Shown piece by piece: positions 9,998 through 33,025 of a stretch of 37,250 nt of DNA; within the stretch, counting starts at the first letter, position 1; every line of letters starts with the position of its first letter. The stretch is taken from the NCBI RefSeq assembly GCF_002751875.1, contig NZ_NMZM01000016.1, positions 1-37,250 of the forward strand. The letters are read 5' to 3'. Source of the DNA: Oceaniglobus indicus (lineage in GTDB: Bacteria > Pseudomonadota > Alphaproteobacteria > Rhodobacterales > Rhodobacteraceae). The notes under the pieces were generated by a model. It was not told the DNA's origin. It was given only the letters and a program-made list of their open reading frames with translations, and did not search any database. A program made the position numbers and the translations under genes.

Positions 9998-10007
9998 GGT
10001 ATCGCCC

Positions 10008-11174: not shown

Positions 11175-11202
11175 TGCATCCGAACCGCACGGGGGCCGCG
11201 CC

Positions 11203-11289
11203 ATGACGGATACCGCCGCCGCGCCCCGTGCATGTCCGGCACGGCCCGGCCGAAGCGGCGGGGCCGGTCAGGGCGGGGTCGCGCGATGA
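11203..11289 (+). CDS. Possible 28-codon small ORF coupled to the AroE-like gene
   Basis: An ATG at 11203 opens 28 codons rich in Arg, Gly and Ala. They end in TGA at 11287-11289, overlapping the AroE-like ATG at 11286 (ATGA). It fills the otherwise empty 111-bp gap after DUF993. The composition is that of chance translation of GC-rich DNA and nothing is recognised. The overlap could give translational coupling. Weak call. Confidence 0.2.
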   Translation: MTDTAAAPRACPARPGRSGGAGQGGVAR

Positions 11290-12059
11290 CCCGGCGAGTG
11301 TTCGCCATCATCGGCCATCCCGTCGGCCAGGTCCGATCCCCCGAGGTGTTCAACGCGCTGTTCGAACGCGACGGACAGGACGCGCGGATGGTGGCGCTGG
11401 ACGTGACGCCCGAGGCCTTTGTCGGCGTTCTTGCCGGGCTGCACGGCATCGCCAATTTCGGCGGGCTGGTGGTGACGGTGCCCCACAAGATGCAGGCGGC
11501 GACCCTGGCCCATGTCCGCTCGGACCGGGTGGCGATCGTCGGCGCGGCGAACCTGTTGCGCCCGATCGAAGGGGGCTGGGCGGCGGACCTGTCCGACGGC
11601 ATCGGGTTCGTCGAAGGGTTGCGGCAGGCCGGTTACGGGGTCGCGGGCCGGGCGGTGGCGGTGGTCGGCGCGGGGGGTGCGGGCCTGGCCATCGCCCAGG
11701 CGCTGTTGGCGGGGGGCGCGCGGGTGGCGATCTCGGATCTCGACGCCCGCCGCGCCCGCGACGCCGTTCGCTGCCTGTCGGGATCGGGCGACGTGACGGC
11801 AGGCCCGCCCGATCACAGTCACGATATCGTCGTCAACGCCACGCCGGTCGGCATGGCAGGCGACCCGCGGTTGCCGTTCGATCCCGGGGGTCTGGCCCCC
11901 GGCACCCTCGTGGCCGAGGCGATCATGACCCCCGCCGTCACGCCGCTGCTGCACGAAGCGGCCCGCCGGGGGCATCCGGTGCACGAAGGCCGTCACATGC
12001 TGGACGGCCAGGTGCCCGCGATCCGGGCGTTCCTGGGGATGGCGCCGGACCGGGCCTGA
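11286..12059 (+). CDS. Shikimate dehydrogenase-like oxidoreductase (AroE family)
   Basis: This 257-residue protein has the two-domain AroE layout. The N-terminal catalytic domain shows GHPVGQVRSPEVFN, VTVPHK with the catalytic lysine at K68, GAANLL, and the catalytic aspartate D104 in LSDGIGF. The NAD(P) domain has VVGAGGAGLAIAQALL with ISDLDARRA after strand two, whose acidic residue favours NAD. The C-terminal GRHMLDGQVPAIRAFLG keeps the substrate-binding Gln. The substrate region differs from housekeeping AroE (VRSPE instead of HSxSP, ANLL instead of VNTL), which suggests a catabolic hydroxy-acid dehydrogenase rather than aromatic biosynthesis. It ends the operon and faces dctM2, with a strong hairpin between. 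Confidence 0.87.
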   Translation: MTRRVFAIIGHPVGQVRSPEVFNALFERDGQDARMVALDVTPEAFVGVLAGLHGIANFGGLVVTVPHKMQAATLAHVRSDRVAIVGAANLLRPIEGGWAADLSDGIGFVEGLRQAGYGVAGRAVAVVGAGGAGLAIAQALLAGGARVAISDLDARRARDAVRCLSGSGDVTAGPPDHSHDIVVNATPVGMAGDPRLPFDPGGLAPGTLVAEAIMTPAVTPLLHEAARRGHPVHEGRHMLDGQVPAIRAFLGMAPDRA

Positions 12060-16079: not shown

Positions 16080-17423
16080 TCAGACGGCCATGCTGTGGCG
16101 GCCCTCGGGCGAGGCATAGGCGTCGAATTCCACCGCGATCATCCGCGCCAGGTGGCGGGCGTCGTCGCGGATCGTCAGCACGCCGTCACCGTCCAGCGTG
16201 ACCGCACCCCCCCAGGCCTGCGCCGCCCGCGCCGTCAGCGCGCGCACCGTGTCGGGATCGTCCGACATCGCCGGATCGACCCGGAAATCGCACAACAGCC
16301 GTTCGATCGCCGCACCGCGCACCCGGTCCTCGGCGGTTTCGGCATGGCCGCGCAGGGTGGCGGGGCGGCCCTTGGCCACCCGTGCCTTCCAGTCGGCGGT
16401 GCCCGAGGCGTTCTGGGCATGGCCGCCCGGCAACCGCGAGATCGCCGAGGCGCCCAGCCCGATCAGCGTCTGCGCCGCATCCGTCGTATAGCCCTGGAAA
16501 TTGCGCCGCAGGGTGCCCGCGCGGGCCGCGACGGCCATGGAATCCCCGGGGCGGGCGAAATGGTCGATGCCGATCTGCTGGTATCCCGCCGCGGTGAACC
16601 GTTCGGCCGCCAGAAGCGACAGCTCCAGCCGCGCCGCCCCGTCGGGCAGGTCGTCGGCGCGGATCATCACCTGGCGTTTCGACGCCCAGGGCACATGGGC
16701 ATAGCCATAGAGCGCCAGGCGGTCGGGGTTCAGCGACAGCGCCATGTCGATGGTGCGGTTCAGGCTGGCCCGGTCCTGTTTCGGCAGACCATACAGCAGA
16801 TCCAGGTTCACCGCCGCGATATCGCGCGCGCGCAGGCCGTCGACCGCCGCCTTCGTCTGCTCGAAGCTCTGGGGGCGGCCGATGGCGGCCTGCACCGCCG
16901 GTTCGAAATCCTGCACCCCCAGGCTGGCCCGCGTCACGCCCGAGGCGGCCAGCGCGTCCAGCCGGGGGCCGTCGATTTCCGTCGGATCGACCTCGACCGA
17001 GATCTCGGCGTCGGCGGCACGGGGGAACCGCGCCTCGAGCAGGGTGAACAGCCGCACCAGAAGGTCGGGCGGCAGGAACGTCGGCGTGCCGCCCCCGAGG
17101 TGCAGGTGCGCCACCGACACCGCACCGGGCAGCGCCGCGCGGATGATGTCGGCCTCGGCTTCCAGCGCGTCGACATAGGGCGCCAGGGGGGCCTCGCTCT
17201 GGGTGCCCTGGGTGCGGCAGGCGCAGAACCAGCACAGCCGCCGGCAGAACGGAATATGCGCATAAAGCGAGATCCGCGTGCCCGGTTCGATCCGGCTCAG
17301 CCAGCGCAACGCCGTATCGGCACCGATGTCCGGTCCGAACTGCGTCGCGGGCGGATAACTGGTATAACGGGGGGCGCGCGCCGACAGCGCCCGTTCCGTC
17401 AGCTTCGGGTCAAGGTGTATCAT
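16080..17423 (-). CDS. hemN: Oxygen-independent coproporphyrinogen III oxidase HemN
   Basis: This 447-residue radical SAM enzyme converts coproporphyrinogen III to protoporphyrinogen IX without oxygen, keeping haem synthesis going when O2 is scarce. The HemN cluster motif C-x3-C-x2-C-x-C is at residues 60-69 (CRRLCWFCAC). The HemN-type opening RYTSYPPATQF precedes it and LHLGGGTPTFL follows. NLDLLYGLPKQ and YGYAHVPWASKRQ are also typical of true HemN, as opposed to HemW. The gene is divergent from fnrL, and an FNR box lies 36 bp upstream of its start, so induction by low oxygen is expected. Haem is needed for the cbb3 oxidase encoded nearby. Confidence 0.95.
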   Translation of the reverse strand: MIHLDPKLTERALSARAPRYTSYPPATQFGPDIGADTALRWLSRIEPGTRISLYAHIPFCRRLCWFCACRTQGTQSEAPLAPYVDALEAEADIIRAALPGAVSVAHLHLGGGTPTFLPPDLLVRLFTLLEARFPRAADAEISVEVDPTEIDGPRLDALAASGVTRASLGVQDFEPAVQAAIGRPQSFEQTKAAVDGLRARDIAAVNLDLLYGLPKQDRASLNRTIDMALSLNPDRLALYGYAHVPWASKRQVMIRADDLPDGAARLELSLLAAERFTAAGYQQIGIDHFARPGDSMAVAARAGTLRRNFQGYTTDAAQTLIGLGASAISRLPGGHAQNASGTADWKARVAKGRPATLRGHAETAEDRVRGAAIERLLCDFRVDPAMSDDPDTVRALTARAAQAWGGAVTLDGDGVLTIRDDARHLARMIAVEFDAYASPEGRHSMAV

Positions 17424-17458
17424 GTTGTCACATAAGCCCGATCCCGGCGCGCCGCGCC

Positions 17459-17472
17459 TTGATTCAGGTCAA
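17459..17472. promoter_or_regulatory. FNR box in the hemN-fnrL divergent promoter
   Basis: TTGATTCAGGTCAA matches the FNR consensus TTGAT-N4-ATCAA at nine of ten positions. It lies 21 bp before fnrL and 35 bp before hemN. It probably activates hemN and may autoregulate fnrL. It is the exact reverse complement of the box at 18263. Confidence 0.88.
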
Positions 17473-17493
17473 GCGGAATGGCAGATACGCGCC

Positions 17494-18255
17494 ATGACAC
17501 ATATCGATCCCTCCCTGGCCGATCTGACCCGCGCGGGCCGCACCCTGGCCGGCCCCGGCTGTTCGCAATGCCCGATCCGCCACCGGGCGATCTGCGCCAC
17601 CTGCGAGGACAGCGAACTGGACCGCCTCGAGGGGATGAAATCCTATCATACCTGGCGCGCCGGCGAGACGATCGTCATGGAGGGCGCCGACCTGGCCTTT
17701 GTCGGATCGGTGGTCAGCGGCTGCGCGACCCTGACCCGGTCGATGGAGGATGGCCGGATGCAGATGGTCGGCCTGCTGATGCCGTCGGATTTCATCGGCC
17801 GCAACGACCGCGCCGTCGCCGCCTATGAGGTCGTCGCCGCCACCGATGTCACCTTCTGCATGTTCCGGCGCGCCGAATTCCGCCAGATGATGCGCGAGAC
17901 GCCCCACGTCATGGAACGGATGCTGGAGATGTCGCTGGACGAACTGGACGCCGCGCGCGACTGGATGATCGTTCTCGGCCGCAAGACCGCGCGCGAGAAG
18001 GTCGCGACCCTGCTGGCCAACATCCTGCGCCGGGTGTCGACCCAGGGCAGCCCGCTGCACGCGCAACTGCCGCTGACGCGGGATGCGATGGCAACCTACC
18101 TGGGGCTGACCATCGAAACGGTCAGCCGGCAGATGACCGCGCTGCGCAAGGACGGACTGATCGATCTGGACGGGCGGCGCGGGATCAGCTGCCGCGACCT
18201 GTCGGCCCTGCTGGCCGAAGCCGGCGACGACGAGGACGGTCAATCCCCGGCCTGA
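17494..18255 (+). CDS. fnrL: Crp/Fnr-family oxygen regulator FnrL
   Basis: This 253-residue FNR-type activator has cluster cysteines at residues 23, 26, 34 and 37 (CSQCPIRHRAICATC), with a further cysteine in VTFCMFRR inside the sensor barrel, as needed to hold an oxygen-labile 4Fe-4S cluster. The C-terminal helix-turn-helix contains LGLTIETVSRQMTALRKDG, whose E-x-x-S-R recognition helix is the FNR version that reads TTGAT. The ATG at 17494 is chosen because the FNR box upstream would otherwise be within the gene. It lies between hemN and ccoNOQP, each with an FNR box, so it is the local low-oxygen switch. Confidence 0.95.
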   Translation: MTHIDPSLADLTRAGRTLAGPGCSQCPIRHRAICATCEDSELDRLEGMKSYHTWRAGETIVMEGADLAFVGSVVSGCATLTRSMEDGRMQMVGLLMPSDFIGRNDRAVAAYEVVAATDVTFCMFRRAEFRQMMRETPHVMERMLEMSLDELDAARDWMIVLGRKTAREKVATLLANILRRVSTQGSPLHAQLPLTRDAMATYLGLTIETVSRQMTALRKDGLIDLDGRRGISCRDLSALLAEAGDDEDGQSPA

Positions 18256-18262
18256 CACGAAC

Positions 18263-18276
18263 TTGACCTGAATCAA
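18263..18276. promoter_or_regulatory. FNR box upstream of ccoNOQP
   Basis: TTGACCTGAATCAA is a good FNR box 65 bp before ccoN and 7 bp after the fnrL stop. Its 17-bp core (CTTGACCTGAATCAAGG) is an exact inverted copy of the site at 17459. It should drive the oxidase operon at low oxygen. Confidence 0.88.
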
Positions 18277-18341
18277 GGTGCCGGTCAGATTATTTTGACA
18301 TTGCACGCGCAAAGCCTGCCGGAAAGGGAAGCACAATTCAC

Positions 18342-19970
18342 ATGTCGTATTATCTGAGAGGCCCCTCCGGCTATGCACTGCTGGCGGCCCTGGGCCTGAT
18401 CGCGCTTGCTTCGGCGATCGCGGCCAATTTCGCCCGCGACCTTGCATACCTGGTTCACGCGCTGCTGATCATGGCCGTCGCGGCGGGCCTGTTCGTCGCG
18501 ACCATGCGCGCCATGCCGGTCGATGACGGCCCCGCCGTCGCACCGCCGCGCCCCACCGGATACATGGACGGGCCGATCCGCTATGGCGTGATCGCCACCG
18601 CGTTCTGGGGTGTCGTCGGGTTCCTGGCCGGCACCTACATCGCGTTCCAGCTGGCGTTTCCCGCGCTGAACATCGAATGGGCGCAACCCTATGCCAACTT
18701 CGGCCGCCTGCGCCCGCTGCACACCTCGGCGGTGATCTTCGCCTTCGGCGGCAACGCGCTGATCGCCACGTCGTTCTATGTCGTGCAGCGCACCAGCGCC
18801 GCGCGGCTGTGGGGCGGTCCCGCCGCATGGTTCGTCTTCTGGGGCTATCAGCTGTTCATCGTGCTGGCCGCCACCGGCTATCTGCTGGGCGCGACCCAGT
18901 CGAAGGAATACGCCGAGCCCGAATGGTATGTCGACATCTGGCTGACCATCGTCTGGCTGACCTACCTGGCCGTCTTCATGGGCACGATCATCAACCGGCG
19001 CGAACGCCACATCTATGTCGCCAACTGGTTCTACCTGGCGTTCATCGTCACCGTCGCCATGCTGCATGTGGTCAACAACCTGTCGATCCCGGTGTCGATC
19101 TTCGGCTCGAAGTCGGTCCAGGTCTTCGCGGGCGTGCAGGACGCGATGACCCAGTGGTGGTACGGCCACAACGCCGTCGGCTTCTTCCTGACCGCCGGGT
19201 TCCTGGGGATGATGTATTACTTCGTGCCGAAACAGGCTGGGCGCCCGGTCTATTCCTACAAGCTGTCGATCATCCACTTCTGGGCGCTGATCTTCCTCTA
19301 TATCTGGGCCGGGCCGCACCATCTGCACTATACCGCGCTTCCCGACTGGGCGGCGACGCTGGGCATGGTGTTCTCGATCATCCTGTGGATGCCGTCCTGG
19401 GGGGGCATGATCAACGGCCTGATGACCCTTCAGGGGGCCTGGGACAAGATCCGCACCGACCCGATCATCCGCATGTTCGTCGCCTCGCTGGCATTCTACG
19501 GGATGTCGACGTTCGAGGGGCCGATGATGTCGATCCGCGCCGTGAACTCGCTGTCGCATTACACCGACTGGACCATCGGACACGTCCATTCCGGCGCGCT
19601 TGGCTGGAACGGCATGATCACCTTCGGGGCGCTGTATTTCCTGACGCCGAAACTCTGGGGCCGCAAGCAGATGTATTCCATGTCCGCGATCAACGCCCAC
19701 TTCTGGCTCGCGACCATCGGGATCGTGCTTTACGCGTCGTCCATGTGGGTCACCGGCATCATGGAGGGCCTGATGTGGCGCGAGGTCGACGCCAACGGCT
19801 TCCTCGTCAACTCGTTCGCCGACACGGTGGATGCCAAGTTTCCGATGTACGTCGTGCGGGCCGTCGGTGGTGCGCTTTACGTGGCGGGCGGAATCATCAT
19901 GGTGTGGAACATGTGGATGACCATCCGCGATCCCCGCGCCGTCGCCGTCGTCGCAACGCCCGCGGAGTAG
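18342..19970 (+). CDS. ccoN: cbb3-type cytochrome c oxidase subunit I CcoN
   Basis: This 542-residue catalytic subunit of the high-affinity cbb3 oxidase has twelve core membrane helices. Haem and copper ligands are visible: His in [16 protein letters not shown], the Cu-B histidine in [11 protein letters not shown], the paired histidines in [13 protein letters not shown], and HVH in [13 protein letters not shown]. It reduces O2 to water and pumps protons in the cytoplasmic membrane. Two extra hydrophobic stretches at the N-terminus (residues about 10-30 and 35-55) are common in alphaproteobacterial CcoN. It starts the ccoNOQP operon behind an FNR box. Confidence 0.97.
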
Positions 19971-19977
19971 TAGTAGA

Positions 19978-20808
19978 ATGAGCAAGGACCCGAGAAGCCC
20001 GGACTATGATCCGAAGGACGACCCCAAGGTCGCGACCGCATCGGACGCGCCCGGGGAAATCCCCAACGAACTGCCGCCCGAGACGCAGACGATCACCTTT
20101 CACCAGCGGTTCGAACGCAACGCCACCCTGTTGCTGATCGGCAGCTTCGCGGTGGTGTCGGTGGGCGGCATCGTCGAGATCGCGCCACTGTTCTGGCTGG
20201 AGAACACGATCGAGAAGGTCGAGGGCATGCGCCCCTATTCGCCGCTGGAGCTGACCGGGCGCGACATCTACGTGCGCGAGGGCTGTTACCTGTGCCACAG
20301 CCAGATGATCCGCCCGATGCGCGACGAGGTCGAACGCTATGGCCATTATTCGCTGGCCGCGGAATCGATGTACGACCACCCGCACCAGTGGGGCTCCAAG
20401 CGCACCGGACCCGACCTGGCCCGGATCGGCGGCCGCTACAGCGACGAATGGCACGTCGATCACCTGATGGACCCGCAATCGGTGGTGCCCGAAAGCGTGA
20501 TGCCGAAATACGCCTTCCTGTCGGACACCCTGATCGACGGCGAACATGTCGGCGACCTGGTGGCGACGCACCGGATGGTGGGCGTGCCCTATACCGATGA
20601 CATGGTGAACGCGGCGCGGGCCGACTTCCGGGTGCAGACCGATCCGTTCGGCGATATCGACGGGTTGCTCGAACGCTATCCGGGCGCGCAGGTGCGCAAT
20701 TTCGACGGCCGCCCCGGCACTTCGGAAATGGATGCGCTGATCGCCTACCTGCAGATGCTGGGCACGCTGGTCGACTTCTCGACCTTCACCCCCGACCCGG
20801 ACCGCTAG
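19978..20808 (+). CDS. ccoO: cbb3-type cytochrome c oxidase subunit II CcoO
   Basis: This 276-residue membrane-anchored mono-haem cytochrome c has one membrane helix ([24 protein letters not shown]) and one haem c site, CYLCH, at residues 103-107. The methionine ligand probably lies in SVMPKYAFL. The subunit passes electrons from CcoP to CcoN. The N-terminus holds about 45 extra acidic and proline-rich residues before the point where CcoO proteins usually begin ([12 protein letters not shown]). No internal start codon offers a shorter version, so the extension looks real. The gene begins seven bases after ccoN. Confidence 0.96.
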
Positions 20809-20816
20809 GAGCGACG

Positions 20817-21032
20817 ATGGAGACCTATTCCTTCCTGCGCTACCTGGCCGACAGCTGGGTGCTGCTGATCCTCACCGGAATCTTCCTCGGTGTGATCGTC
20901 TGGGCGTTCCGCCCCGGCTCGCGCGCCATGCACGACGATGCGGCGGCGGTGCCGTTCCGGCATGACGATGACACTATCCCCCCCCGCCACCGCGCCACGG
21001 GCGACGTGACGAAAGGCCAACCGGATGTCTGA
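20817..21032 (+). CDS. ccoQ: cbb3-type oxidase small subunit CcoQ (FixQ)
   Basis: This 71-residue protein has one membrane helix (about residues 14-32, WVLLILTGIFLGVIVWAF) followed by a polar tail containing RPGSR, as in CcoQ/FixQ, which stabilises the oxidase complex. It sits between ccoO and ccoP and overlaps ccoP by 8 bp. GGAG lies before the start. The tail is somewhat longer than the usual 50-60 residues. Confidence 0.92.
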   Translation: METYSFLRYLADSWVLLILTGIFLGVIVWAFRPGSRAMHDDAAAVPFRHDDDTIPPRHRATGDVTKGQPDV

Positions 21033-22044
21033 CGACAAGCACAGCCACGAAAAACGCATCGATGAAGAGACAGGCACCGAAACCACAGGCCACAGCTGGG
21101 ACGGCATCGAGGAGCTGAACACGCCGCTGCCGCGCTGGTGGCTGTGGACGTTCTACGGGACCATCGTCTGGGGGGTGATCTATACCATCCTCTATCCGGC
21201 CTGGCCGCTGGTGTCGGGCACGACGCGCGGCGTTCTCGACTGGACCACCCGCGGCGAGGTGGCGGCAAAGATCGAAACCGTCCGCCTGTCCAACGCCGAG
21301 CTGACCGAGAGCCTGGTCAACATCGACCTCGGTGTGCTGGACCGCAACGAGGATCTGCACCGCTTCGCCGTCTCGGCCGGGGCGTCGGTCTTCGCCAACA
21401 ATTGTTCGCAATGCCACGGCGCGGGCGCGGCGGGCGTTCAGGCCGCCGGCTATCCCAACCTGCTGGACGACGACTGGCTCTGGGGCGGACAGATCACCGA
21501 CATCGCCATGACCGTGCGCCACGGCATCCGCAACGAAGACGACCCCGATGCCCGCTACTCCGAGATGCCGGCCTTCGGCGAGATCCTGGAAGACGCGGAA
21601 ATCGCCACGCTGGTGACCTATGTGCGCAGCCTGTCGGGGCTCGAGGAGGAAACCGCCGAGGGCGCCGAGCTGTATCTGGACAACTGCTCGGCCTGCCACG
21701 GCGAAGAGGGCCTGGGCGACCGCGAACTGGGCGCGCCGAACCTGACCGATGCGATCTGGCTCTATGGCGGCACCCCCGAGGCGGTGCGCTATACGATCGA
21801 GAACGCCCGCTTCGGCGTCATGCCGCCCTGGGGCGAACGCCTGGGCGAGGCGCAGGTGCGCGCGGTCGCGGCCTATGTCCACGGCCTGGGCGGCGGCGAG
21901 GCCGAACCGCAGGTCGAGGAAGAACCGACCGCCGACGAGATGGAAGAGGCCGCCGACGTGCCCGACGCCAGCTTCCCGGCGGACGCCGAAGAGACACCGA
22001 CCGAAGCGGGCGAAGCGCCGGTCGAACCCGTCGTGCCCGAGTAA
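21025..22044 (+). CDS. ccoP: cbb3-type cytochrome c oxidase subunit III CcoP
   Basis: This 339-residue dihaem cytochrome c of the cbb3 oxidase begins with the usual hydrophilic lead and then NTPLPRWWLWTFYGTIVWGVIY, which spans the membrane. Haem c sites are CSQCH at residues 127-131 and CSACH at 221-225. It accepts electrons from soluble or membrane cytochrome c. After the second cytochrome domain (ends near residue 288) there is an additional 50-residue tail rich in Glu, Pro and Ala, not part of the standard fold. It ends the structural operon; the assembly genes start 559 bp later, beyond a repeat array. Confidence 0.96.
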   Translation: MSDDKHSHEKRIDEETGTETTGHSWDGIEELNTPLPRWWLWTFYGTIVWGVIYTILYPAWPLVSGTTRGVLDWTTRGEVAAKIETVRLSNAELTESLVNIDLGVLDRNEDLHRFAVSAGASVFANNCSQCHGAGAAGVQAAGYPNLLDDDWLWGGQITDIAMTVRHGIRNEDDPDARYSEMPAFGEILEDAEIATLVTYVRSLSGLEEETAEGAELYLDNCSACHGEEGLGDRELGAPNLTDAIWLYGGTPEAVRYTIENARFGVMPPWGERLGEAQVRAVAAYVHGLGGGEAEPQVEEEPTADEMEEAADVPDASFPADAEETPTEAGEAPVEPVVPE

Positions 22045-22185
22045 CGGCACCCGAGCTGCGGCGATCGCGCGGCTGGTCCGTGCGACCGCCGCGTTGCCCG
22101 CCGCGCGAACCGGGAGGCGTGCGGCGGGCGATCCGTTTCCCGCCGGCCCGGGTCTCCGGGTCCGCGTTCTGCGCGTGCCGAAGGG

Positions 22186-22582
22186 GCGCATGGCCGTCGC
22201 GCAACGTCCAGGCGCGCGGTCTCGTCAGCGCGCGGCAGTCGCGCAAATGTCCAGGCGCGCGGCCATCGCGCGACAAATCTGCGCATGTCCGCCGCGCGAC
22301 CTTCACAAAGCGCGCCCCCGGACCGACATTCAGGGCTGCACGGATCCGTCGCACGGGCCCGCGCGCAAGCCACAGCACGCGACCCTTCGCGTCACCCGCA
22401 CGGCGCGCTATCCTGCGCCATAGCCACGGCGCGACCCTCGCGCCATAACACCAGCGCGCGTCTGTCGCGCGACAACACCAGCGCGCGGCCATCGCGCGAG
22501 AACACCAACGCGCGGCCATCGCGCAAAAATCACAGCGCGTGTCCCGCGCAAGAAATCACAGCGCGCGTTCCGCGCGACCCTG
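22186..22582. repeat. Tandem hairpin-repeat array between ccoP and ccoG
   Basis: This 559-bp gene-free gap holds degenerate copies of a 26-27-bp unit of the form GCGCGCGGCCATCGCGCG followed by an A/C-rich linker such as AACACCA. Four units at 22425-22532 are each exactly 27 bp and are followed by a 26-bp and a shorter one. Older, broken copies lie at about 22186-22300. Every unit can fold into a small CGCG stem. No conserved coding frame runs through it. Bases 22045-22185 are GC-rich and show nothing further. Confidence 0.85.
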
Positions 22583-22603
22583 CCCCAGAACGGATTGCGC
22601 CCG

Positions 22604-24382
22604 ATGTCCGACGCCCCCCTCTTCGCCGCCCGTGAACCCGTCTTTCCCCGCCGGGTCTCGGGGTTCTTCCGCCGCCTCAAGTGGTGGATCATGGCGATCA
22701 CGCTGGGGATCTATTACCTGGTGCCCTGGATCCGCTGGGACCGGGGCCCTGCCCTGCCCGACCAGGCGGTGCTGATCGATCTTGCGAACCGGCGGTTCTA
22801 TTTCTTCTGGATCGAGATCTGGCCCCATGAATTCTATTTCGTCGCGGGCCTGCTGATCATGGCCGGGCTGGGGCTGTTCCTGTTCACCTCGGCGCTCGGC
22901 CGGGTCTGGTGCGGCTATGCCTGTCCGCAGACGGTGTGGACCGATCTGTTCCTGCTGGTCGAACGCTGGATCGAGGGCGACCGCAACGCCCGGGTGCGAC
23001 TGTTCAAGGCCCCCTGGGGCGCGCGCAAGTGGCGCCTCAGGATCACCAAGTGGGTCGTCTGGCTGCTGATCGCGGTGGCCACCGGCGGCGCCTGGGTGTT
23101 CTATTTCGCCGACGCCCCCACCCTGTTGCGCCAGCTGGTGACCTTCGACGCCCCCATGGTCGCCTATGCCACCATCGGCATCCTGACCGCCACCACCTTC
23201 GTCTTCGGCGGCTTCATGCGCGAACAGGTCTGCATCTACATGTGCCCCTGGCCGCGCATCCAGGGCGCGATGATGGACGAGGGCACCCTGACCGTCGGCT
23301 ACCGCGACTGGCGCGGCGAGCCGCGCGGCCGCGGCAACGCGCGCCGCGCCGCCGTGGCCGCCGATGTCGGCCCGGCCTCGCCCGTCCGTTACGGCGCGGG
23401 GGCCGACAAGGACGCCGCCGCCGCGCCCGTCTCGCTGGACGTGGCGGGGGGCCGCGTGTCGCGCGAGGGCGAGACGCTGGGCGATTGCATCGACTGCATG
23501 GCCTGCGTCAACGTCTGCCCCATGGGCATCGACATCCGCGAGGGCCAGCAGATGGAATGCATCACCTGCGCGCTGTGCATCGATGCCTGCGACGAGGTGA
23601 TGGCCAAGATCGGCCGCCCGCGCGGGTTGATCGACTATCTGGCGCTGGACGACCGCCCGCCGGTCCTGCCCGGTGAACACGCCCCGGTGCGCCCGTTCGG
23701 CGTCGACGCCCCCGGCGACGACAGCGGCGCCGAAACCGGCGTGCCTGCCGCCACCGCGGCCGCGCGTGCGGATCTGACGGCCGATGCGACCGCCACCGTC
23801 CCGGACACGTCAACCGCCACCGTTCCGGACACGTCAACCGCCACCGTTCCGGTGGACGGCGCCCCCGCCCCTGCCCCGAACGCCGCCGATCGTCCCTTCG
23901 TCATGCCCCACAGCCAGGACTGGACCCCGGTGCCGCTGTGGAAGCACGTCTTCCGGCCCCGCACCATCGTCTATACCGTGATCTGGGCCGCCATCGGCTT
24001 CGGTCTGCTGTTCGCGCTGTTCATCCGCCCCGATGTCGAACTGACCGTGGCGCCGATCCGCAACCCCACCTTCGTGACGATGTCGGACGGGACGATCCGC
24101 AACACCTATGACATCCGCCTGCGCAACAAGCATGGCGAGCCGCGCGATTTCCAGTTGTCGGTCACCTCGGACGGCGCGCTGGACATCACCCTGGAAGGGC
24201 GCGACGGCACCTCGGTCAAGGTGCCCCCCGACAGCACCCTGTTGCAGCGCGTCTATGTCACCGCCCCGTCGGGCACCCCCGCGGCCGAGGCCGAGCGCAC
24301 CGAGTTCCGGTTCTGGGTCGAGGACACGGCATCGGGCGAACGGGCCTGGCGCGACACGCTGTTCAACGGCAAGGAGAGCTAG
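22604..24382 (+). CDS. ccoG: Membrane ferredoxin-like protein CcoG (RdxA/FixG), cbb3 assembly
   Basis: This 592-residue polytopic protein reduces copper for delivery to the cbb3 oxidase (known for the CcoG family). Visible are VWCGYACPQTVW near residue 105, CIYMCPWPRIQGAM, two 4Fe-4S motifs (CIDCMACVNVCP and CITCALCIDACD) and a last membrane helix (TIVYTVIWAAIGFGLLFALF) before a periplasmic beta domain. It is longer than typical CcoG. Two low-complexity inserts account for this: an Arg/Ala/Asp stretch before the first cluster and an Ala/Thr/Asp/Pro linker after the second, holding an in-frame 24-bp tandem repeat. The ATG at 22604 is preferred over a TTG three codons upstream. Confidence 0.95.
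   Translation: MSDAPLFAAREPVFPRRVSGFFRRLKWWIMAITLGIYYLVPWIRWDRGPALPDQAVLIDLANRRFYFFWIEIWPHEFYFVAGLLIMAGLGLFLFTSALGRVWCGYACPQTVWTDLFLLVERWIEGDRNARVRLFKAPWGARKWRLRITKWVVWLLIAVATGGAWVFYFADAPTLLRQLVTFDAPMVAYATIGILTATTFVFGGFMREQVCIYMCPWPRIQGAMMDEGTLTVGYRDWRGEPRGRGNARRAAVAADVGPASPVRYGAGADKDAAAAPVSLDVAGGRVSREGETLGDCIDCMACVNVCPMGIDIREGQQMECITCALCIDACDEVMAKIGRPRGLIDYLALDDRPPVLPGEHAPVRPFGVDAPGDDSGAETGVPAATAAARADLTADATATVPDTSTATVPDTSTATVPVDGAPAPAPNAADRPFVMPHSQDWTPVPLWKHVFRPRTIVYTVIWAAIGFGLLFALFIRPDVELTVAPIRNPTFVTMSDGTIRNTYDIRLRNKHGEPRDFQLSVTSDGALDITLEGRDGTSVKVPPDSTLLQRVYVTAPSGTPAAEAERTEFRFWVEDTASGERAWRDTLFNGKES
23789..23853 (+). repeat. In-frame 24-bp tandem repeat inside ccoG
   Basis: Two full copies (23789-23812, 23813-23836) and a partial third (23837-23853) encode TATVPDTS repeated. 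The first two copies differ by one base. The repeat lengthens the linker between the iron-sulphur domain and the last membrane helix and probably arose by slippage. Confidence 0.9.
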
Positions 24383-24383
24383 G

Positions 24384-24857
24384 ATGCCCACCCATGCACC
24401 CCGCAGCGCGCGGCGGATCACCGGCTGGCATGTCCTGGCCATGTTCGTCGGCGGCTTTTCGGTCATCATCGCGGTCAACCTGGCGCTGGCGTTCAACGCC
24501 ATCCGCACCTTTCCCGGGCTCGAGACCGAAAGCTCCTATGTCGCCGGTCAGACCTTCGATGCCGACCGCGCCGCACAGGACGCGCTTGGCTGGGATGTCG
24601 GCGCACGCTACGGCGACGGCCGGCTGACCTTGTCGATCACGGGTGCCGATGGCGCGCCGGTGCGCCCCGAGGTGGTCTCGGCGACCCTGGGGCGGGCCAC
24701 CAACGTCGCCTCGGATTCCACGCCGCAGTTCGCCTGGACCGGCACCGCCCTGGCCGCGCCCGCCGACCTGGCGCGCGGCAACTGGAACCTGCGCGTCGAT
24801 CTGCGCGCGTCCGACGGCACCGCGTTCCGCCGCCGCATTCCGATCCGGGTGAGATGA
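24384..24857 (+). CDS. ccoH: cbb3 oxidase assembly protein CcoH (FixH)
   Basis: This 157-residue FixH-family protein has one N-terminal membrane anchor (WHVLAMFVGGFSVIIAVNLALAF, about residues 14-36) with FNAIRTFPGLETESSYVAGQ just after it, the family signature. The remaining periplasmic beta domain ends in RRRIPIRVR. CcoH binds early cbb3 subcomplexes and is needed for their maturation. The start at 24384 follows the ccoG stop by one base with AAGGAGAG upstream. The stop overlaps the ccoI start region (ATGATGA). Confidence 0.93.
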   Translation: MPTHAPRSARRITGWHVLAMFVGGFSVIIAVNLALAFNAIRTFPGLETESSYVAGQTFDADRAAQDALGWDVGARYGDGRLTLSITGADGAPVRPEVVSATLGRATNVASDSTPQFAWTGTALAAPADLARGNWNLRVDLRASDGTAFRRRIPIRVR

Positions 24858-26965
24858 TGACCGTCGTCTGCCCCGCCTGCCCGCCGATGCCGATGGCCCA
24901 TGACACCGCCCATGATGCGGCGGGCGATGTCGTGCACCTGTCGTTGCCGGGCATCCATTGCGCCGCCTGCATCGGCGGCGTCGAGGGCACCCTGGGCGCC
25001 GTGCCGGGGGTGCGGGCCGCCCGGGTGAACCTGGGGCGGCGGCGGGTGCGGATCGTCACCGCGCCGGATCTCGGCGCGGCCCCGGCGCTGGCCGCGCTCG
25101 AGGCGGCGGGATACGAGGCGCACGAGCTGGACGACACCGTGCAGACGGGCGGCAGCGACGATATCGGCCGCACATTGCTGGCGCGCATCGCCGTGGCCGG
25201 GTTCGCGATGATGAACGTCATGGCGCTGTCGGTGGCGGTGTGGTCGGGGGCCACCGCCACCACCGAGGCGCTGTTTCACTGGATCTCCGCCGCCATCGCC
25301 CTGCCCGCCCTGGCCTTTGCCGCCGTGCCGTTCTTTTCGTCCGCCGCCGCGGCCCTGCGGGCGGGACGGGTCAACATGGATGTCCCCATCGCCCTGGCGA
25401 TCGCCCTGGCCTGCGTGACCTCCCTGCACGAGACGATCTACAGCGCCGGCGCCGACACCTGGTTCGACGCTGCGCTGTCGCTGACGTTCTTCCTGCTGGC
25501 CGGGCGGTACCTGGATCACCGCGCCCGCGCCGTCGCCCGTTCGGCCGCGGCCGAGCTGACCGCGCTCGAGGTGCCCCGCGCCACCCTGCTGGACGGCACC
25601 GCCCGGCGCACCGTGGCCGTGGCCGACATCGCCGTGGGCGACCGGATCGCGCTGAGCGTCGGCGCCCGGGTGCCGGTGGACGGCACCGCCGAAAGTGCCG
25701 CGCTGCTGGACCGTTCGGCCCTGAGCGGCGAATCCGTGCCCGTGGCCATCGCCGCCGGTGACGCGGTCTGCGCCGGCGAGGCGGTGCTGGATGCGCCCTT
25801 CGTGCTGCAGGCCACCGCCCGCGCCCAGGACAGCACCCTGCGCCGCCTCGCCGCCCTGGTCGAGATCGCGGAAACCGGGCGCCACCGCTATTCCGGGATC
25901 GCGGATCGGGCCGCGCGGCTCTATGCCCCCATCGTGCACACGCTGGCGGCGCTGACCTTCGGCGGCTGGTGGCTGGCCACGGGCGATGTGCACCGGGCCG
26001 TGGGCATCGCCACCGCCGTCCTGATCATCACCTGCCCCTGCGCCCTGGGCCTGGCCGTGCCCGCCGTCACCGCCAGCATCACGGGGCGGCTGTTCCGCAT
26101 GGGGGTGCTGCTGAAATCCGACAGCGCACTGGAACGGCTGGCCGATGTGGATTGCGTGCTGCTGGACAAGACCGGCACCCTGACCGAGGGCACGCCACGC
26201 CTGACCGGCCTGGACGATGCCGCCGCCGGTGTCGCGCTGGCGCTGGCACGGGCCTCGTCGCACCCGGTGTCGCGCGCGATCGCCGCCGCCCTGGCCGATC
26301 ACGATCCCGCCGAGGTCACGGATATCCGCGAAACAACCGGCACCGGCGTCAGCGGCCGCTGGCAGGGCGGCGCGGTGTCGCTGGGGCGCGGCGCCGACGG
26401 CACCGAACTGGTGCTGGGCCAGGCGCGGTTCCCGCTCGAGATGACCGAAAGCCTGCGCCCCGGGGCCGCCGACATGGTAGCGGCGCTGCTGCGCGACGGC
26501 TTCGAGGTGCGGATGCTGACCGGCGACCGCCCCGGCGCCGCCCAGGCGCTGGCACAGAGGCTGGGGATCGACCTGGTCCATGCCGGGATGCGCCCCGAGG
26601 ACAAGGCCGCCCTGGTGGCCGAACTGGGGGCCGAGGGACGCCATGTGCTGATGATCGGCGACGGGCTGAACGACACCGCCGCGCTGGCCTCGGCCCATGT
26701 GTCGCTGGCCCCCGCCAGCGCGCTGGACGCCGCACGGGTGGCGGCGGACGGGGTGATCCTGGCCTCGGATCTCGGCACGGTGGCGCAGACCCTGCGCACG
26801 TCGCGCCGCGCGCTGCGCCGGATCCGCCAGAACCTCGGCCTGGCCGCCGCCTACAACGCCGTGGCCATCCCCATTGCGCTGGCCGGGTTCGCCACACCGC
26901 TGGCAGCCGCGCTGGCGATGTCGCTGTCGTCGGTGACGGTCGTGGCCAACGCGGTGCGCCGATGA
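24854..26965 (+). CDS. ccoI: Copper-exporting P1B-type ATPase CcoI (FixI)
   Basis: This 703-residue P-type ATPase supplies copper for cbb3 assembly. The N-terminal heavy-metal domain has GIHCAACIGGVE (Cys 36 and 39), preceded by a CPAC pair typical of FixI-type N-termini. The membrane metal site CPC is at residues 394-396, the phosphorylation site DKTGT begins at D438, SHPVSRA marks the ATP-binding domain, and GDGLNDTAAL the hinge. Eight membrane segments fit the P1B plan. It overlaps ccoH by four bases and ccoS by four bases. The neighbours make CcoI, rather than a CopA detoxification pump, the right name. Confidence 0.95.
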   Translation: MMTVVCPACPPMPMAHDTAHDAAGDVVHLSLPGIHCAACIGGVEGTLGAVPGVRAARVNLGRRRVRIVTAPDLGAAPALAALEAAGYEAHELDDTVQTGGSDDIGRTLLARIAVAGFAMMNVMALSVAVWSGATATTEALFHWISAAIALPALAFAAVPFFSSAAAALRAGRVNMDVPIALAIALACVTSLHETIYSAGADTWFDAALSLTFFLLAGRYLDHRARAVARSAAAELTALEVPRATLLDGTARRTVAVADIAVGDRIALSVGARVPVDGTAESAALLDRSALSGESVPVAIAAGDAVCAGEAVLDAPFVLQATARAQDSTLRRLAALVEIAETGRHRYSGIADRAARLYAPIVHTLAALTFGGWWLATGDVHRAVGIATAVLIITCPCALGLAVPAVTASITGRLFRMGVLLKSDSALERLADVDCVLLDKTGTLTEGTPRLTGLDDAAAGVALALARASSHPVSRAIAAALADHDPAEVTDIRETTGTGVSGRWQGGAVSLGRGADGTELVLGQARFPLEMTESLRPGAADMVAALLRDGFEVRMLTGDRPGAAQALAQRLGIDLVHAGMRPEDKAALVAELGAEGRHVLMIGDGLNDTAALASAHVSLAPASALDAARVAADGVILASDLGTVAQTLRTSRRALRRIRQNLGLAAAYNAVAIPIALAGFATPLAAALAMSLSSVTVVANAVRR

Positions 26966-27126
26966 ACATCCTGGTCGTCCTGATCCCGGTGTCGGTGTTT
27001 TTGGGGGCGGTGGGCCTGGCCGCCTGCATCTGGACCCTGCGCCATGGTCAATACGAAGACCTGGAAGGCGATGCGGCCCGCATCCTGCTGGAGGATGACG
27101 CGCCCGAGGATGACGCCAACGCCTGA
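26962..27126 (+). CDS. ccoS: cbb3 oxidase maturation protein CcoS (FixS)
   Basis: This 54-residue protein has one membrane helix (ILVVLIPVSVFLGAVGLAACIWTL) followed by the conserved QYEDLEGDAARIL. This is the CcoS pattern; the family is required for insertion of cofactors into CcoN. The ATG overlaps the ccoI stop (ATGA). It ends the ccoGHIS assembly operon, and the plasmid origin begins about 185 bp further on. Confidence 0.93.
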   Translation: MNILVVLIPVSVFLGAVGLAACIWTLRHGQYEDLEGDAARILLEDDAPEDDANA

Positions 27127-27310: not shown

Positions 27311-27541
27311 TTATCCACAGCCCGCTTCGGAGAGGCGGAACAGTTATAAGAATAGTTAAAGTAGTTAGACCGAATCAGAATCGGTGTTTCCTGTCGTGAA
27401 AACAGAGACTTGCGCGAGACCCCGAGTGTGTGATGCACCGTGCCCGAGTGTGTGATGCACCGTGCCTGCGATGTGTGATGCACCGTGGCTTCGCCGCCGG
27501 GCGCCGGGGCGGTGGCGGGAAAAAGTGTGTGATGCACCGTG
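27311..27541. other. Probable plasmid replication origin (oriV)
   Basis: In order, there is a perfect DnaA box TTATCCACA (27311-27319), an AT-rich patch (about 27341-27370) in an otherwise GC-rich sequence, two GAATC sites 6 bp apart (27372, 27378) that match the alphaproteobacterial CcrM target GANTC, and four iterons up to the end of repA. DnaA box, unwinding element and iterons beside the initiator gene define an iteron origin. Here the origin lies on the 3' side of repA, not before its start. The stretch 27127-27310 after ccoS holds no gene. Confidence 0.85.
27426..27541 (+). repeat. Replication iterons (four copies)
   Basis: TGTGTGATGCACCGTG occurs exactly at 27427-27442, 27449-27464, 27472-27487 and 27526-27541. 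The first two copies are part of a perfect 22-bp tandem repeat. Start-to-start spacings are 22, 23 and 54 bp, close to whole helical turns. They should be the binding sites of the RepA encoded at 27557-28381. Confidence 0.9.
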
Positions 27542-27556
27542 TCCCGAAAGACACGC

Positions 27557-28381
27557 TCAGAGCAGCAGCCGGCGCCATTCCAGCCGCAGCACCGGGCCGT
27601 TGGCGCCGGATTCCTCGGTCATCGTATAGGTCGGCAGGGCGTCGCGCTTGATCGCGATCCGAAGATCGCGCGAGAACTGGCCGAAGGGGGCCGGCGATCC
27701 GGTACGCTTGTGCAGGTCGCGAAAGGTAAAGATCCAGCCCTCGGGATTGTCGACCCCGTTGCCCGCGTGGCGGCGCGCCAGGCGATAGAGGAACCGGTCC
27801 AGCCCGCTGGTCAGCTCGAAATACCGCGGCGAGATCGCCAGCACCTCGCGCCCCTCGACCACCGCGCGGTAGATCCAGCGCGGCAGGGTCATCTGCGCGC
27901 CCAGGGGGCGGCCGTGGTCGTCCTCGTCCAGGGTGTAGTCGGCCAGCAGGTTGAACACCTCCATGCGTTCCTTGTCGCGCCGCCGGATCGTGGTTTCGAT
28001 CCGCGTGCCCTGCAGCCGGGCGATGGCGGACTTGAACTGCTGGTAGTTCTTGCCCCCCGTCGCCCGCCCCACCGCCTTGAGCAGGTCATAGGGGCGGAAG
28101 GTGATGGTGGCGCCGGGTTTCTGGCCGCGTTCCACCCCGGCGTTGATCTGCGAGATGCCCCAGAGCAGGATGTCGAAATCATAGATCGTGGCGATGCCGC
28201 CGGTCTGCTCGGAGGCGGTGATCGTGACCTTCTGGCCCGACGGCCCCGTCCAGTCCAGCCGCATCGGGCTGCGCTTGGCCAGGCTGACCATGGGGGCCGA
28301 CATCATCTCGCGGTCATCGCGCAACGGGATGTCGCCGATGATCGCGACGAACAGGTCCAGTTGTTCGCGCTGGGTGCTCAT
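27557..28381 (-). CDS. repA: Plasmid replication initiator RepA (RPA family)
   Basis: This 274-residue replication initiator resembles the RPA family (PF10134) of alphaproteobacterial plasmids. Characteristic segments are EMMSAPMVSLAKR, YDFDILLWGISQI, FRPYDLLKAVGRATGGKNYQQFKSAIARLQGTRIET and ISPRYFELTSGLDRFLYRLARRHAG, consistent with two winged-helix domains. It would bind the iterons next to its 3' end and open the origin. The ATG at 28381 overlaps the RHH gene stop (ATGA), so repA is translated as the third gene of a parA-RHH-repA operon, linking copy control and partition. Longer starts upstream run into the preceding gene. Confidence 0.9.
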   Translation of the reverse strand: MSTQREQLDLFVAIIGDIPLRDDREMMSAPMVSLAKRSPMRLDWTGPSGQKVTITASEQTGGIATIYDFDILLWGISQINAGVERGQKPGATITFRPYDLLKAVGRATGGKNYQQFKSAIARLQGTRIETTIRRRDKERMEVFNLLADYTLDEDDHGRPLGAQMTLPRWIYRAVVEGREVLAISPRYFELTSGLDRFLYRLARRHAGNGVDNPEGWIFTFRDLHKRTGSPAPFGQFSRDLRIAIKRDALPTYTMTEESGANGPVLRLEWRRLLL

Positions 28382-28635
28382 TTCGCCGGCCCGTGGCCGT
28401 CCATCAGCAGGCGCAGCATGTCGGCATAGGTGCGCCGGTCGTCGCGGCACAGCCGCTTGAACCGCTCGATGGTGTCCAGCGGCGCCTTGATGCTGATCTG
28501 GCCGTCGCGTGGCGCCTCGCGGCTGGGCCAGCGTTCGGGCTCTGGCGGGCTGGCCGGCGGCGCGGCCCGGGGCGCGGTGGTGATCGCCTTGGTCTCGAAC
28601 TGTTTCAGGCGGTTCATGTCAAGCGGTTTGGGCAT
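28378..28635 (-). CDS. Small ribbon-helix-helix partition protein (ParG/ParB-like)
   Basis: This 85-residue protein has a disordered Pro/Ala-rich N-terminal half and a C-terminal ribbon-helix-helix: strand DGQISIKAP, helix LDTIERFKRLCRDD, turn, helix TYADMLRLLMDG. This is the layout of centromere-binding partners of ParA such as ParG. Its start overlaps the parA end by 17 bp and its stop overlaps the repA start (ATGA). It is the probable ligand of the GGGTA array upstream of parA and may also repress the operon. I infer the function from fold, size and position. Confidence 0.82.
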   Translation of the reverse strand: MPKPLDMNRLKQFETKAITTAPRAAPPASPPEPERWPSREAPRDGQISIKAPLDTIERFKRLCRDDRRTYADMLRLLMDGHGPAK

Positions 28636-29296
28636 GGCGGCTTTCCTCGAGGATATCGACGATTTCAGAGACGAAGGCCTGGGCGTTGGCCACGGCCTTG
28701 TCGATCCCGTTGACGTCGGCGGGATCGAGCTGTCGCAGCCCGCCACCGGCGTTGTGCAGCGACGAGAACGCGGTGCGCCGGTGCAACTCGGTCTGCATCA
28801 CCCGCCCGGCCTTGGTCAGTTCGCGGTGGATGTGCTTTTCCAGCTTGCTTTTGACGGCGGCCGAGGTGCGCGCGAACAGGATCGCGGTGGGAATGGCGCG
28901 GCGCCGCGCCCTGCCCTCCATCTCGATTTCGGCCAGGGTTTCGATGGCAGCGTCGGCGTCCTGCTGCTCCTCGCCCGAGGGGATGACCACCAGGTCGGAT
29001 TCGGCGATGGCAAAGGACGTCAGCCGGCTGGCCGACCCCTCCAGGTCGATGACCACGAAGGTGGCGGCACGCTGTGCCTCGGCGATCTCGTCCTGGATCG
29101 TGCGCTCGCCGCCGCTGGTGACGACGCGCAGGGTGTCGGGCAGGCGCGCCAGCGTCGACCAGCGGGTCAGGCGGCGGGCCGGGTCGGCGTCGATCATGAT
29201 GACATCCGTGCCTTCGGCCAGTTCGGTGGCCAGGACGATGGCCGATGTCGTCTTGCCGGCGCCGCCCTTGGATGTGGCAAAGGAGATTGTGGGCAT
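28619..29296 (-). CDS. parA: Plasmid partition ATPase ParA
   Basis: This 225-residue ParA/MinD-type ATPase without an N-terminal DNA-binding domain belongs to the small ParA class that pairs with RHH proteins. The deviant Walker A motif KGGAGKTT is at residues 10-17, and Walker B-like VVIDLEGSA follows near residue 80. It moves plasmid copies apart on the nucleoid. The ATG at 29296 is chosen for GAGG at the right distance upstream; a GTG two codons earlier is possible. It heads the minus-strand operon parA-RHH-repA. Confidence 0.94.
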   Translation of the reverse strand: MPTISFATSKGGAGKTTSAIVLATELAEGTDVIMIDADPARRLTRWSTLARLPDTLRVVTSGGERTIQDEIAEAQRAATFVVIDLEGSASRLTSFAIAESDLVVIPSGEEQQDADAAIETLAEIEMEGRARRRAIPTAILFARTSAAVKSKLEKHIHRELTKAGRVMQTELHRRTAFSSLHNAGGGLRQLDPADVNGIDKAVANAQAFVSEIVDILEESRHAQTA

Positions 29297-29340
29297 GTCC
29301 ACCTCGGGGATAGGGAACTCTGGCCAATGGTATGCAGAAG

Positions 29341-29452
29341 TAGGGTAGCCATGGCAACCCTAGCCTAGCCTAGGGTAGGGTATCATAGGGTAGGATAGGG
29401 TAGCCAAGGATACCTCGGAGAACCCTTGGGTACCTTCGGGTATCCAAGGGTA
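29341..29452. repeat. Phased GGGTA repeat array, probable partition site (parS/parC)
   Basis: GGGTA occurs at 29343, 29373, 29378, 29388, 29398, 29428, 29438 and 29448, with a variant GGATA at 29408. Spacings are multiples of 5 or 10 bp, so sites lie on one or two faces of the helix. The flanks add CCTAGGG-type inverted copies. The array sits 45 bp upstream of parA, where RHH-type partition proteins bind arrays of short repeats. It probably works as both centromere and operator. Confidence 0.82.
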
Positions 29453-32900: not shown

Positions 32901-33015
32901 GTCACTTTTGGGCACAGGTGCAGGTGACAGGTGGATGTGACAGCTTCATTCGTCACATAAGGGTGGCGCATCGGCCCTTGTGACAGTATCACCCGGCCAG
33001 CCACCCCAATGTGAC
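32901..33015. promoter_or_regulatory. Putative res (resolution) site of the adjacent resolvase
   Basis: The 140-bp gap before the resolvase gene is full of GTGAC/GTCAC half-sites. ATGTGAC (32935-32941) and GTCACAT (32952-32958) form a perfect 7-bp inverted repeat across 24 bp. GTCAC (32901) and GTGAC (32924-32928) form a 28-bp pair, GTGA/TCAC lies at 32980-32992, and a further ATGTGAC is at 33009. Several imperfect inverted repeats of 24-28 bp just upstream of the gene match the layout of a three-subsite res. The role is inferred. Confidence 0.6.
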
Positions 33016-33025
33016 GGATTTTGCC

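Follow-up and report, generated by a model that had tools for sequence, protein, structure and literature searches.

A phylogenetically foreign hemN-fnrL-ccoNOQP-ccoGHIS block on a 37-kb plasmid of Oceaniglobus indicus and the probable displacement of resident low-oxygen genes

Gene sets for cbb3-type cytochrome oxidases are already known from plasmids, with CcoN matches in 393 of 72,556 plasmid records, mostly rhizobial, and one set even residing on a 29.5-kb RPA plasmid. Other chromosomal functions have been described on plasmids as well, e.g. the photosynthesis gene clusters of Rhodobacteraceae, which are functional clusters carried whole on plasmids (PMC6052148), and the core genes panCB of Rhizobium etli, which lie on a plasmid and are indispensable for pantothenate synthesis (PMC3082293). 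In this study, we analysed a 37,250-bp stretch of Oceaniglobus indicus DNA (NZ_NMZM01000016.1, hereafter the window), which is one entire contig (G000:C7, or C7) and carries at positions 16,080-27,126 the genes hemN, fnrL, ccoNOQP and ccoGHIS, all intact. With a probability of roughly 0.78, we read this block as an acquired, foreign one that sits on a plasmid and has displaced the resident genes of the host, i.e. as a case of xenologous displacement.

The closest known plasmid systems are found in Sulfitobacter, on plasmids of 176-337 kb such as NZ_CP025810, NZ_CP085168 and pSpoCB-1 of S. pontiacus CB-D (PMC9044938), which are ~5 to 9 times larger than the 37-kb plasmid. Two Sulfitobacter plasmids carry ccoNOQPGHIS of the same cbb3 lineage (100/100 in the tree described below), and in the two regions examined neither hemN nor fnrL is annotated next to cco. 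Among plasmid records, CcoI is matched at E ≤ 1e-150 in seven, all of them from Sulfitobacter. Paracoccus sediminicola p3 (NZ_CP115771, 29.5 kb) is likewise small and combines annotated genes for replication initiator protein A, ribbon-helix-helix and ParA-type proteins with a cbb3 set; its layout differs, however, running fnr-ccoI-S-N-O-Q-P together with nirK and pseudoazurin, with no hemN, ccoG or ccoH annotated. This plasmid (L210, 1-29546) also has NnrS/NnrU and resembles a portable low-oxygen/denitrification kit. The same hemN-fnrL-ccoNOQP-ccoGHIS content is found on extrachromosomal replicons in Paracoccus (pNSM5TCa, 326 kb; pFER4, 1.46 Mb), which are far larger, have usp between fnrL and ccoN, and take another position in the tree, whereas Limimaricola variabilis unnamed02 (NZ_CP139693, 254 kb) carries fnrL, hemN, a P-type ATPase gene and ccoNOQP on a plasmid in a different gene order, with usp between fnrL and hemN. 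No small plasmid with a hemN-fnrL-cco block was found among the open-access literature listed, and what sets the present case apart is the proposed displacement: the incoming foreign block sits on a very small replicon, and the genome shows three corresponding absences at other places.

Every catalytic and assembly gene of a cbb3 operon is intact in the window. The block starts on the reverse strand with hemN (16,080-17,423), encoding oxygen-independent coproporphyrinogen III oxidase (TIGR00538, 2.1e-108, above the cut-off; CxxxCxxC at residue 60), and all other genes lie on the forward strand. The FNR-type regulator gene fnrL (17,494-18,255; 253 aa from the chosen ATG, its start set by reading) matches the equivalog model NF045989 at 3e-108 and 360.7 bits against a cut-off of 300. 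It is followed by ccoN for cbb3 oxidase subunit I (18,342-19,970; TIGR00780, 1.7e-237), ccoO (19,978-20,808; TIGR00781, 1.2e-106; one CxxCH), ccoQ (20,817-21,032; 71 aa, identified by reading from its frame and its position between ccoO and ccoP, with no profile), and ccoP (21,025-22,044; TIGR00782, 1.3e-107; two CxxCH). The assembly genes comprise ccoG (22,604-24,382; TIGR02745, 1.1e-155), ccoH or FixH (24,384-24,857; PF05751, 1.5e-35), ccoI for a copper P-type ATPase (24,854-26,965; TIGR01511, 1.3e-128; CPC and DKTG motifs), and ccoS (26,962-27,126; 54 aa, TIGR00847, 4.3e-19), the starts of ccoG, ccoH and ccoS being set by reading. In CcoG, the ferredoxin part is joined to the C-terminal part by a low-complexity linker in which TATVPDTS units recur. 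Two predicted FNR boxes accompany these genes on the forward strand, TTGATTCAGGTCAA in the hemN/fnrL gap (17,459-17,472) and TTGACCTGAATCAA 65 bp upstream of the ccoN ATG (18,263-18,276), and they are the only two perfect matches to TTGAY-N4-RTCAA in 37,250 bp (mean expected 0.02; two found in 0 of 100 shuffles). An earlier note on this DNA had described ten intact genes with FNR boxes beside an origin on a separate small replicon, and its account of the block is borne out by the profile matches, the motifs and the boxes.

The host draft genome comprises 26 contigs and 3,667,229 bp, with a completeness of 99.98% and a contamination of 0.06%, and was searched as a whole with CcoN, FnrL, HemN and fused HemN/CcoG/CcoH/CcoI queries. 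Two ccoN matches were found, the plasmid copy and one on contig C16 that is 56% identical to it; the latter belongs to a ccoS-N-O-P set of a different cbb3 type, near pseudoazurin, nosR and nosZ, and canonical-type CcoN is present on C7 only. The best other FnrL match reaches 37%, and the best other HemN match, 30% identical over residues 51-293 with Radical_SAM and HemN_C domains, is read as HemW. Neither a second CcoG nor a second CcoH was matched in the draft genome, and no second HemN or CcoI was found there, CcoI being 32-39% identical to other host P-type ATPases, with short C-terminal pieces up to 45%. The earlier note had also considered that the block might duplicate a chromosomal set. 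Because no second HemN, CcoG, CcoH or CcoI is found and the other ccoN is of the nos-linked type, the block is not simply a second copy, and that reading is rejected on the whole-genome searches, within what the draft assembly covers. The plasmid thus holds the only hemN and cbb3 assembly genes found in the draft genome. Elsewhere, the genome encodes two more haem-copper oxidases (on C22 and C3), a bd-type oxidase (C1) and HemF (C16), and it keeps nosZ and a NorB-type gene with norQ/norD-like neighbours.

The origin of the block was addressed with trees built from hand-picked rows, comprising 23 of the 80 loci that were used as the best of 587 confirmed stretches in a related-locus search (Palleronia aestuarii among them), five plasmid regions, four congeners (G002-G005) and four further family genomes, to which G089, G340, G180 and G241 were added after a survey of 394 family genomes. 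The first Cco concatenation used 34 of 37 rows with canonical ccoN, at least five of six genes being needed (G004, L057 and L070 were excluded), and the second used 38 of 41 rows and five concatenated Cco proteins. From the first FnrL tree, one non-FnrL row, one row from a second cbb3 set and one further row were dropped, and the second round also did without the FnrL rows of G023 and G012, which were badly extracted, and without a long HemN row of G001. In the 38-row Cco tree, the block groups with G089, G340 and G180 (all of other genera than the host), P. aestuarii and the two Sulfitobacter plasmids (100/100), with a branching order inside the group that lacks resolution, and G002 and G003 group with Litoreibacter. 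Forcing the block together with G002 and G003 was 414 log-likelihood units worse and was rejected by the approximately unbiased (AU) test (p-AU 6.0e-7); the 34-row set likewise rejected a grouping with G002 and G003 (p-AU 1.7e-7) or with G005 (p-AU 2.4e-73). In the single-gene trees, HemN is placed beside P. aestuarii and G340 (99) and FnrL beside G089, P. aestuarii and G180 (99). Gene order also links these lineages, as fnrL directly adjoins ccoN, with no usp, on the plasmid and in G089, G340, G180 and P. aestuarii; the two Sulfitobacter plasmid regions have other genes ahead of ccoN.

CcoI is found at E ≤ 1e-215 in 17 of the 394 family genomes and exceeds 61% identity only among the window, G089, G340 and G180; these genomes were sampled evenly from a larger family, and the lineage may therefore extend further. 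The blocks of G089, G340 and G180 occur on contigs of 1.40, 0.47 and 3.31 Mb, respectively, and are probably chromosomal. At least three members of the lineage are thus found on large contigs, and it has also reached plasmids, both in the host genome and in Sulfitobacter. The P. aestuarii contig (21.5 kb) was considered as a candidate sister plasmid and shows no end overlap of at least 15 bp; its block is neighboured by transposase/integrase, kinase and cold-shock genes, and the RepA of the window matches other P. aestuarii contigs at 34-36%.

The present copy thus comes from another lineage according to the trees, and this bears directly on an intragenomic transfer, in which the host's own chromosomal set would have moved (been outsourced) to the plasmid. 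Such moves have been proposed both for the photosynthesis clusters of Rhodobacteraceae (PMC6052148), which were 'outsourced' from the chromosome and later reintegrated, and for rhizobial panCB (PMC3082293), where the authors concluded intragenomic transfer and not xenologous displacement; in O. indicus, too, the locus that congeners use is empty. Here, however, the block is foreign while the resident set is missing, its adjacency of hemN and fnrL and its missing usp match the other lineage, and a common clade with either G002 and G003 or G005 is rejected. The earlier note's second option, a chromosomal set moved to a plasmid, is not supported by these trees and AU tests, which reject it for a resident set. 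A transfer within the genome would be conceivable if the ancestor of the species already carried the foreign block on its chromosome, and we consider the explanation as a whole improbable.

In order to locate the resident genes, five congeners (G001-G005, of which G004 is 75% complete) were compared with the host. Canonical ccoN was matched in G002, G003, G004 and G005 (82-85%). In G002 and G003, fnrL-usp-ccoNOQPGHIS is flanked by a run of smc...cobD-cobC-glycerate kinase on one side and by genes c0-c5 on the other, and in G004 the glycerate-kinase side of the locus is visible and the other side is not. The host retains both flanks on contig C20, with the first run, read as smc, lytic transglycosylase, cobD, cobC and glycerate kinase, at 135.3-144.6 kb and c0-c5 at 115.1-121.0 kb; they lie ~14 kb apart, without fnrL-usp-cco between them. 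The gap is filled by a catabolic island whose translations, judged by eye, indicate TRAP, hydantoinase-like and amidase-like genes, and C20 also lacks c26 and c27, two genes that separate smc from the lytic transglycosylase gene in congeners. No recognisable fnrL, usp or cco remnants were found at C20 by tblastn, which returned just three matches of 67-77 aa at E 0.02-0.07.

Two further absences concern hemN and the second cbb3 set. The hemN gene is located one gene from norD in G001 and G002, whereas the norC-B-Q-D-like cluster on host contig C23 (cytochrome c, COX1, CbbQ/NorQ-type AAA and VWA domains by Pfam) has no hemN; in G003, hemN and the NorB-type gene are on separate contigs. Similarly, ccoI precedes ccoS-N-O-P of the second cbb3 set in G001, G002 and G003, and an FtsX-like permease gene takes its place on host C16. 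All three congeners with both hemN and fnrL (G002, G003 and G004) have them on different contigs, a point that likewise tells against a resident set moved to the plasmid. The resident copy expected under xenologous displacement is therefore gone from the host, its prior presence resting on three of the five congeners. With regard to the genus as a whole, G005 (L137) has no HemN match, no NorB-type match and no second cbb3 set, and its cco genes, a third lineage, group with G023 and Palleronia sediminis in the tree; cco blocks seem to have been swapped repeatedly in the host genus.

These absences also have to be weighed against the view that the replicon is an ordinary accessory plasmid, which adds low-oxygen fitness while the chromosomal absences are unrelated and no dependence exists. 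This view is compatible with a foreign origin of the block and draws on the two other haem-copper oxidases, the bd-type oxidase and HemF, on a second FNR-type regulator, and on congeners that live without a HemN match (G005) or without canonical ccoN (G001). Against it, each of the three separate absences falls on a function supplied by the plasmid, and the NorB-bearing congeners G001, G002 and G003 all have HemN, while the host keeps its NorB-type gene and nosZ; G004 has HemN and no NorB match in its 75%-complete genome. On balance, we regard the accessory explanation as rather unlikely, though well within consideration.

The replicon itself has the features of an RPA-type RepA plasmid, namely a PF10134 RepA, iterons, a ParA-like gene and, by its end overlap, a circular and separate existence. 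Bases 1-77 of C7 are identical to its final 77 bases (37,174-37,250), and joining the ends rebuilds a single uninterrupted DctP frame that the contig ends had split, which together indicate that C7 closes as a circle of ~37,173 bp; judged by this overlap, it is an RPA-type circular plasmid of ~37.2 kb. The replication initiator gene repA (27,557-28,450, reverse strand; PF10134, 1.5e-62) encodes a protein that shares 61% identity with a frame on the 36-kb plasmid pMARC5 of Paracoccus marcusii. The likely origin lies next to repA, where a 22-nt iteron ending in GTGTGATGCACCGTG is present four times (27,421-27,541). A frame for a small ribbon-helix-helix protein (28,378-28,746, reverse strand; RHH_10 at 1.5e-5 and 25.6 bits, just under the cut-off of 27) sits between repA and the gene for a ParA/VirC1-like ATPase (28,619-29,302, reverse strand; VirC1 4.3e-19, AAA_31 2e-12). 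Short imperfect repeats around TAGGGTA lie next to the ParA-like gene at 29,340-29,450 and are possibly a partition site. The overlap, the RPA RepA, the iterons and the ParA-like gene agree with the separate small replicon of the earlier note.

That the contig is an assembly artefact or a contaminant would be conceivable in a draft assembly in which the circle rests on a 77-bp overlap, but this overlap rejoins the DctP frame, replication and partition genes are in place, and the composition is nearest to the host genome among 14 groups, with an estimated contamination of 0.06%; we consider this very improbable, and the composition argues against a contaminant. Specifically, tetranucleotide frequencies of the plasmid correlate with those of the host contigs at r 0.935, the highest of the 14 groups, and those of the block alone at r 0.884, in comparison with r 0.53-0.71 for the block's phylogenetic kin and r 0.76-0.94 for single pieces of the host genome set against the rest. 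GC content is 68.1% in the plasmid as a whole, 69.2% in its block and 65.4% in the host genome pieces compared. Taken together, the composition fits a resident adapted to the host or a congener and speaks against a very recent arrival from the kin of the block.

A course of events consistent with these observations would begin with the plasmid, or its ancestor, acquiring the whole hemN-fnrL-ccoNOQP-ccoGHIS block from a Rhodobacteraceae lineage other than that of the congeners. By homology, FnrL, active without oxygen, would bind the two predicted boxes and activate hemN, fnrL itself and cco, and two perfect boxes are indeed found at these putative target promoters. Box TTGATTCAGGTCAA is identical over all 14 nt to an FnrL site given for dksA of R. 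capsulatus (PMC4634722), and in Dinoroseobacter shibae FnrL controls cbb3 and haem synthesis genes (PMC5398030). Outside the plasmid, the host genome has boxes at C16:76750 and C23:80227. A sigma-70 promoter and terminator scan of 17,300-18,400 returned nothing. The block may thereby act as a self-regulating low-oxygen module that supplies haem in the absence of O2 together with a high-affinity oxidase and the factors for its copper supply and assembly, with HemN substituting for the oxygen-requiring HemF and CcoI loading copper for cbb3. With the block in place, we infer, the host would have lost its own fnrL-usp-cco locus, its hemN, which congeners have next to nor genes or at another place, and the ccoI of its second, nos-linked cbb3 set. 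In Caulobacter, cbb3 activity is strictly dependent on FixI/CcoI, even with copper added (PMC12617631), and if this dependence applies here, the CcoNOP encoded on C16 would also need the plasmid's CcoI.

Several points weigh against this reading. The genome is a draft, and a piece absent from the assembly could hide another copy, while the chromosomal status of C16, C20 and C23 is assumed from their size. C20 is a rearranged site and not a clean deletion, since the c0-c5 run is inverted relative to G002, and its polarity would follow from parsimony, as three of the five congeners have cco beside the flank genes; G001 has no canonical ccoN match, and G005 carries a third cco lineage. Parts of the plasmid-borne set are also lacking in two congeners. 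In the FnrL tree, a very long branch carries G340 out of the clade, probably because the row was badly extracted. Host-like composition is not decisive, because congener G002 is nearly as close (r 0.873 for the plasmid and 0.862 for the block) and because the groups span 20-195 kb in size and r is depressed in the small ones. Finally, a second FNR-type protein, at C16:77310, retains CxxC-x7-C plus a central Cys in a reading of the protein, so that FnrL is probably not the sole oxygen-sensing FNR. The notion of FnrL as the only such regulator was dropped in view of these cysteines, and oxygen sensing probably need not vanish with the plasmid.

Chromids combine plasmid-type replication with host-like composition and core genes, and they are indispensable and usually large. 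The replication genes, the composition (with G002 nearly as close) and the presence of core genes that relatives keep elsewhere agree with this description, while the replicon is just 37 kb and its indispensability is something we infer. Other oxidases and HemF remain on other contigs, so dependence would be conditional, i.e. confined to anoxic haem synthesis and cbb3 assembly, and aerobic growth should not depend on the plasmid, given the other oxidase genes present. The cell's dependence on the plasmid, which the earlier note had raised, therefore survives in this conditional form at most. As the replicon appears to carry the only genes for O2-free haem synthesis and for assembling either cbb3 oxidase, it could tentatively be viewed as a conditionally essential, miniature chromid, a suggestion to which we give slightly short of even odds.

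The remaining cargo is of a different kind. A serine recombinase (resolvase) gene is present at 33,011-33,574 on the forward strand (PF00239, 4.7e-36), and the rest of the scanned plasmid open reading frames (ORFs) encode mostly TRAP and tripartite tricarboxylate transporters, dehydrogenases and regulators. At 9,972-12,059, a frame with an N-terminal shikimate-dehydrogenase domain comes after a gene for a DUF993 protein; both are part of a catabolic gene run that also includes CoA-transferase, enoyl-CoA hydratase and short-chain dehydrogenase/reductase (SDR) genes. The ARAGORN scan of the window gave no match, and an Rfam search of it gave none at gathering scores. As to the mobile second copy that the earlier note had offered as one option, no relaxase or conjugation genes were seen among the ORFs scanned, which were part of those in the window, and no search aimed at relaxases was made. 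In other genomes, the ccoN match at G018:C1:1747681-1749254 consists of two overlapping pieces, the second with in-frame stops, and is possibly broken or frameshifted (in a two-contig genome), and Paracoccus marcusii pKGP1 (NZ_CP143308; L209, 1-20000) carries FnrL with many short annotated molybdopterin-type and NnrS fragments, which give the impression of decay or of poor sequencing.

Genes of core energy metabolism would normally be looked for on a chromosome, and here a small plasmid seems to be the source of a foreign ten-gene module. With resident genes missing at three places, a 37-kb element could decide whether the cell has haem and a high-affinity oxidase without oxygen, and loss of the plasmid in culture could silently remove low-oxygen traits. 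The system offers a compact, testable case of a plasmid becoming indispensable and, if the miniature-chromid suggestion is true, the low-oxygen programme of the host would have passed to a foreign plasmid.

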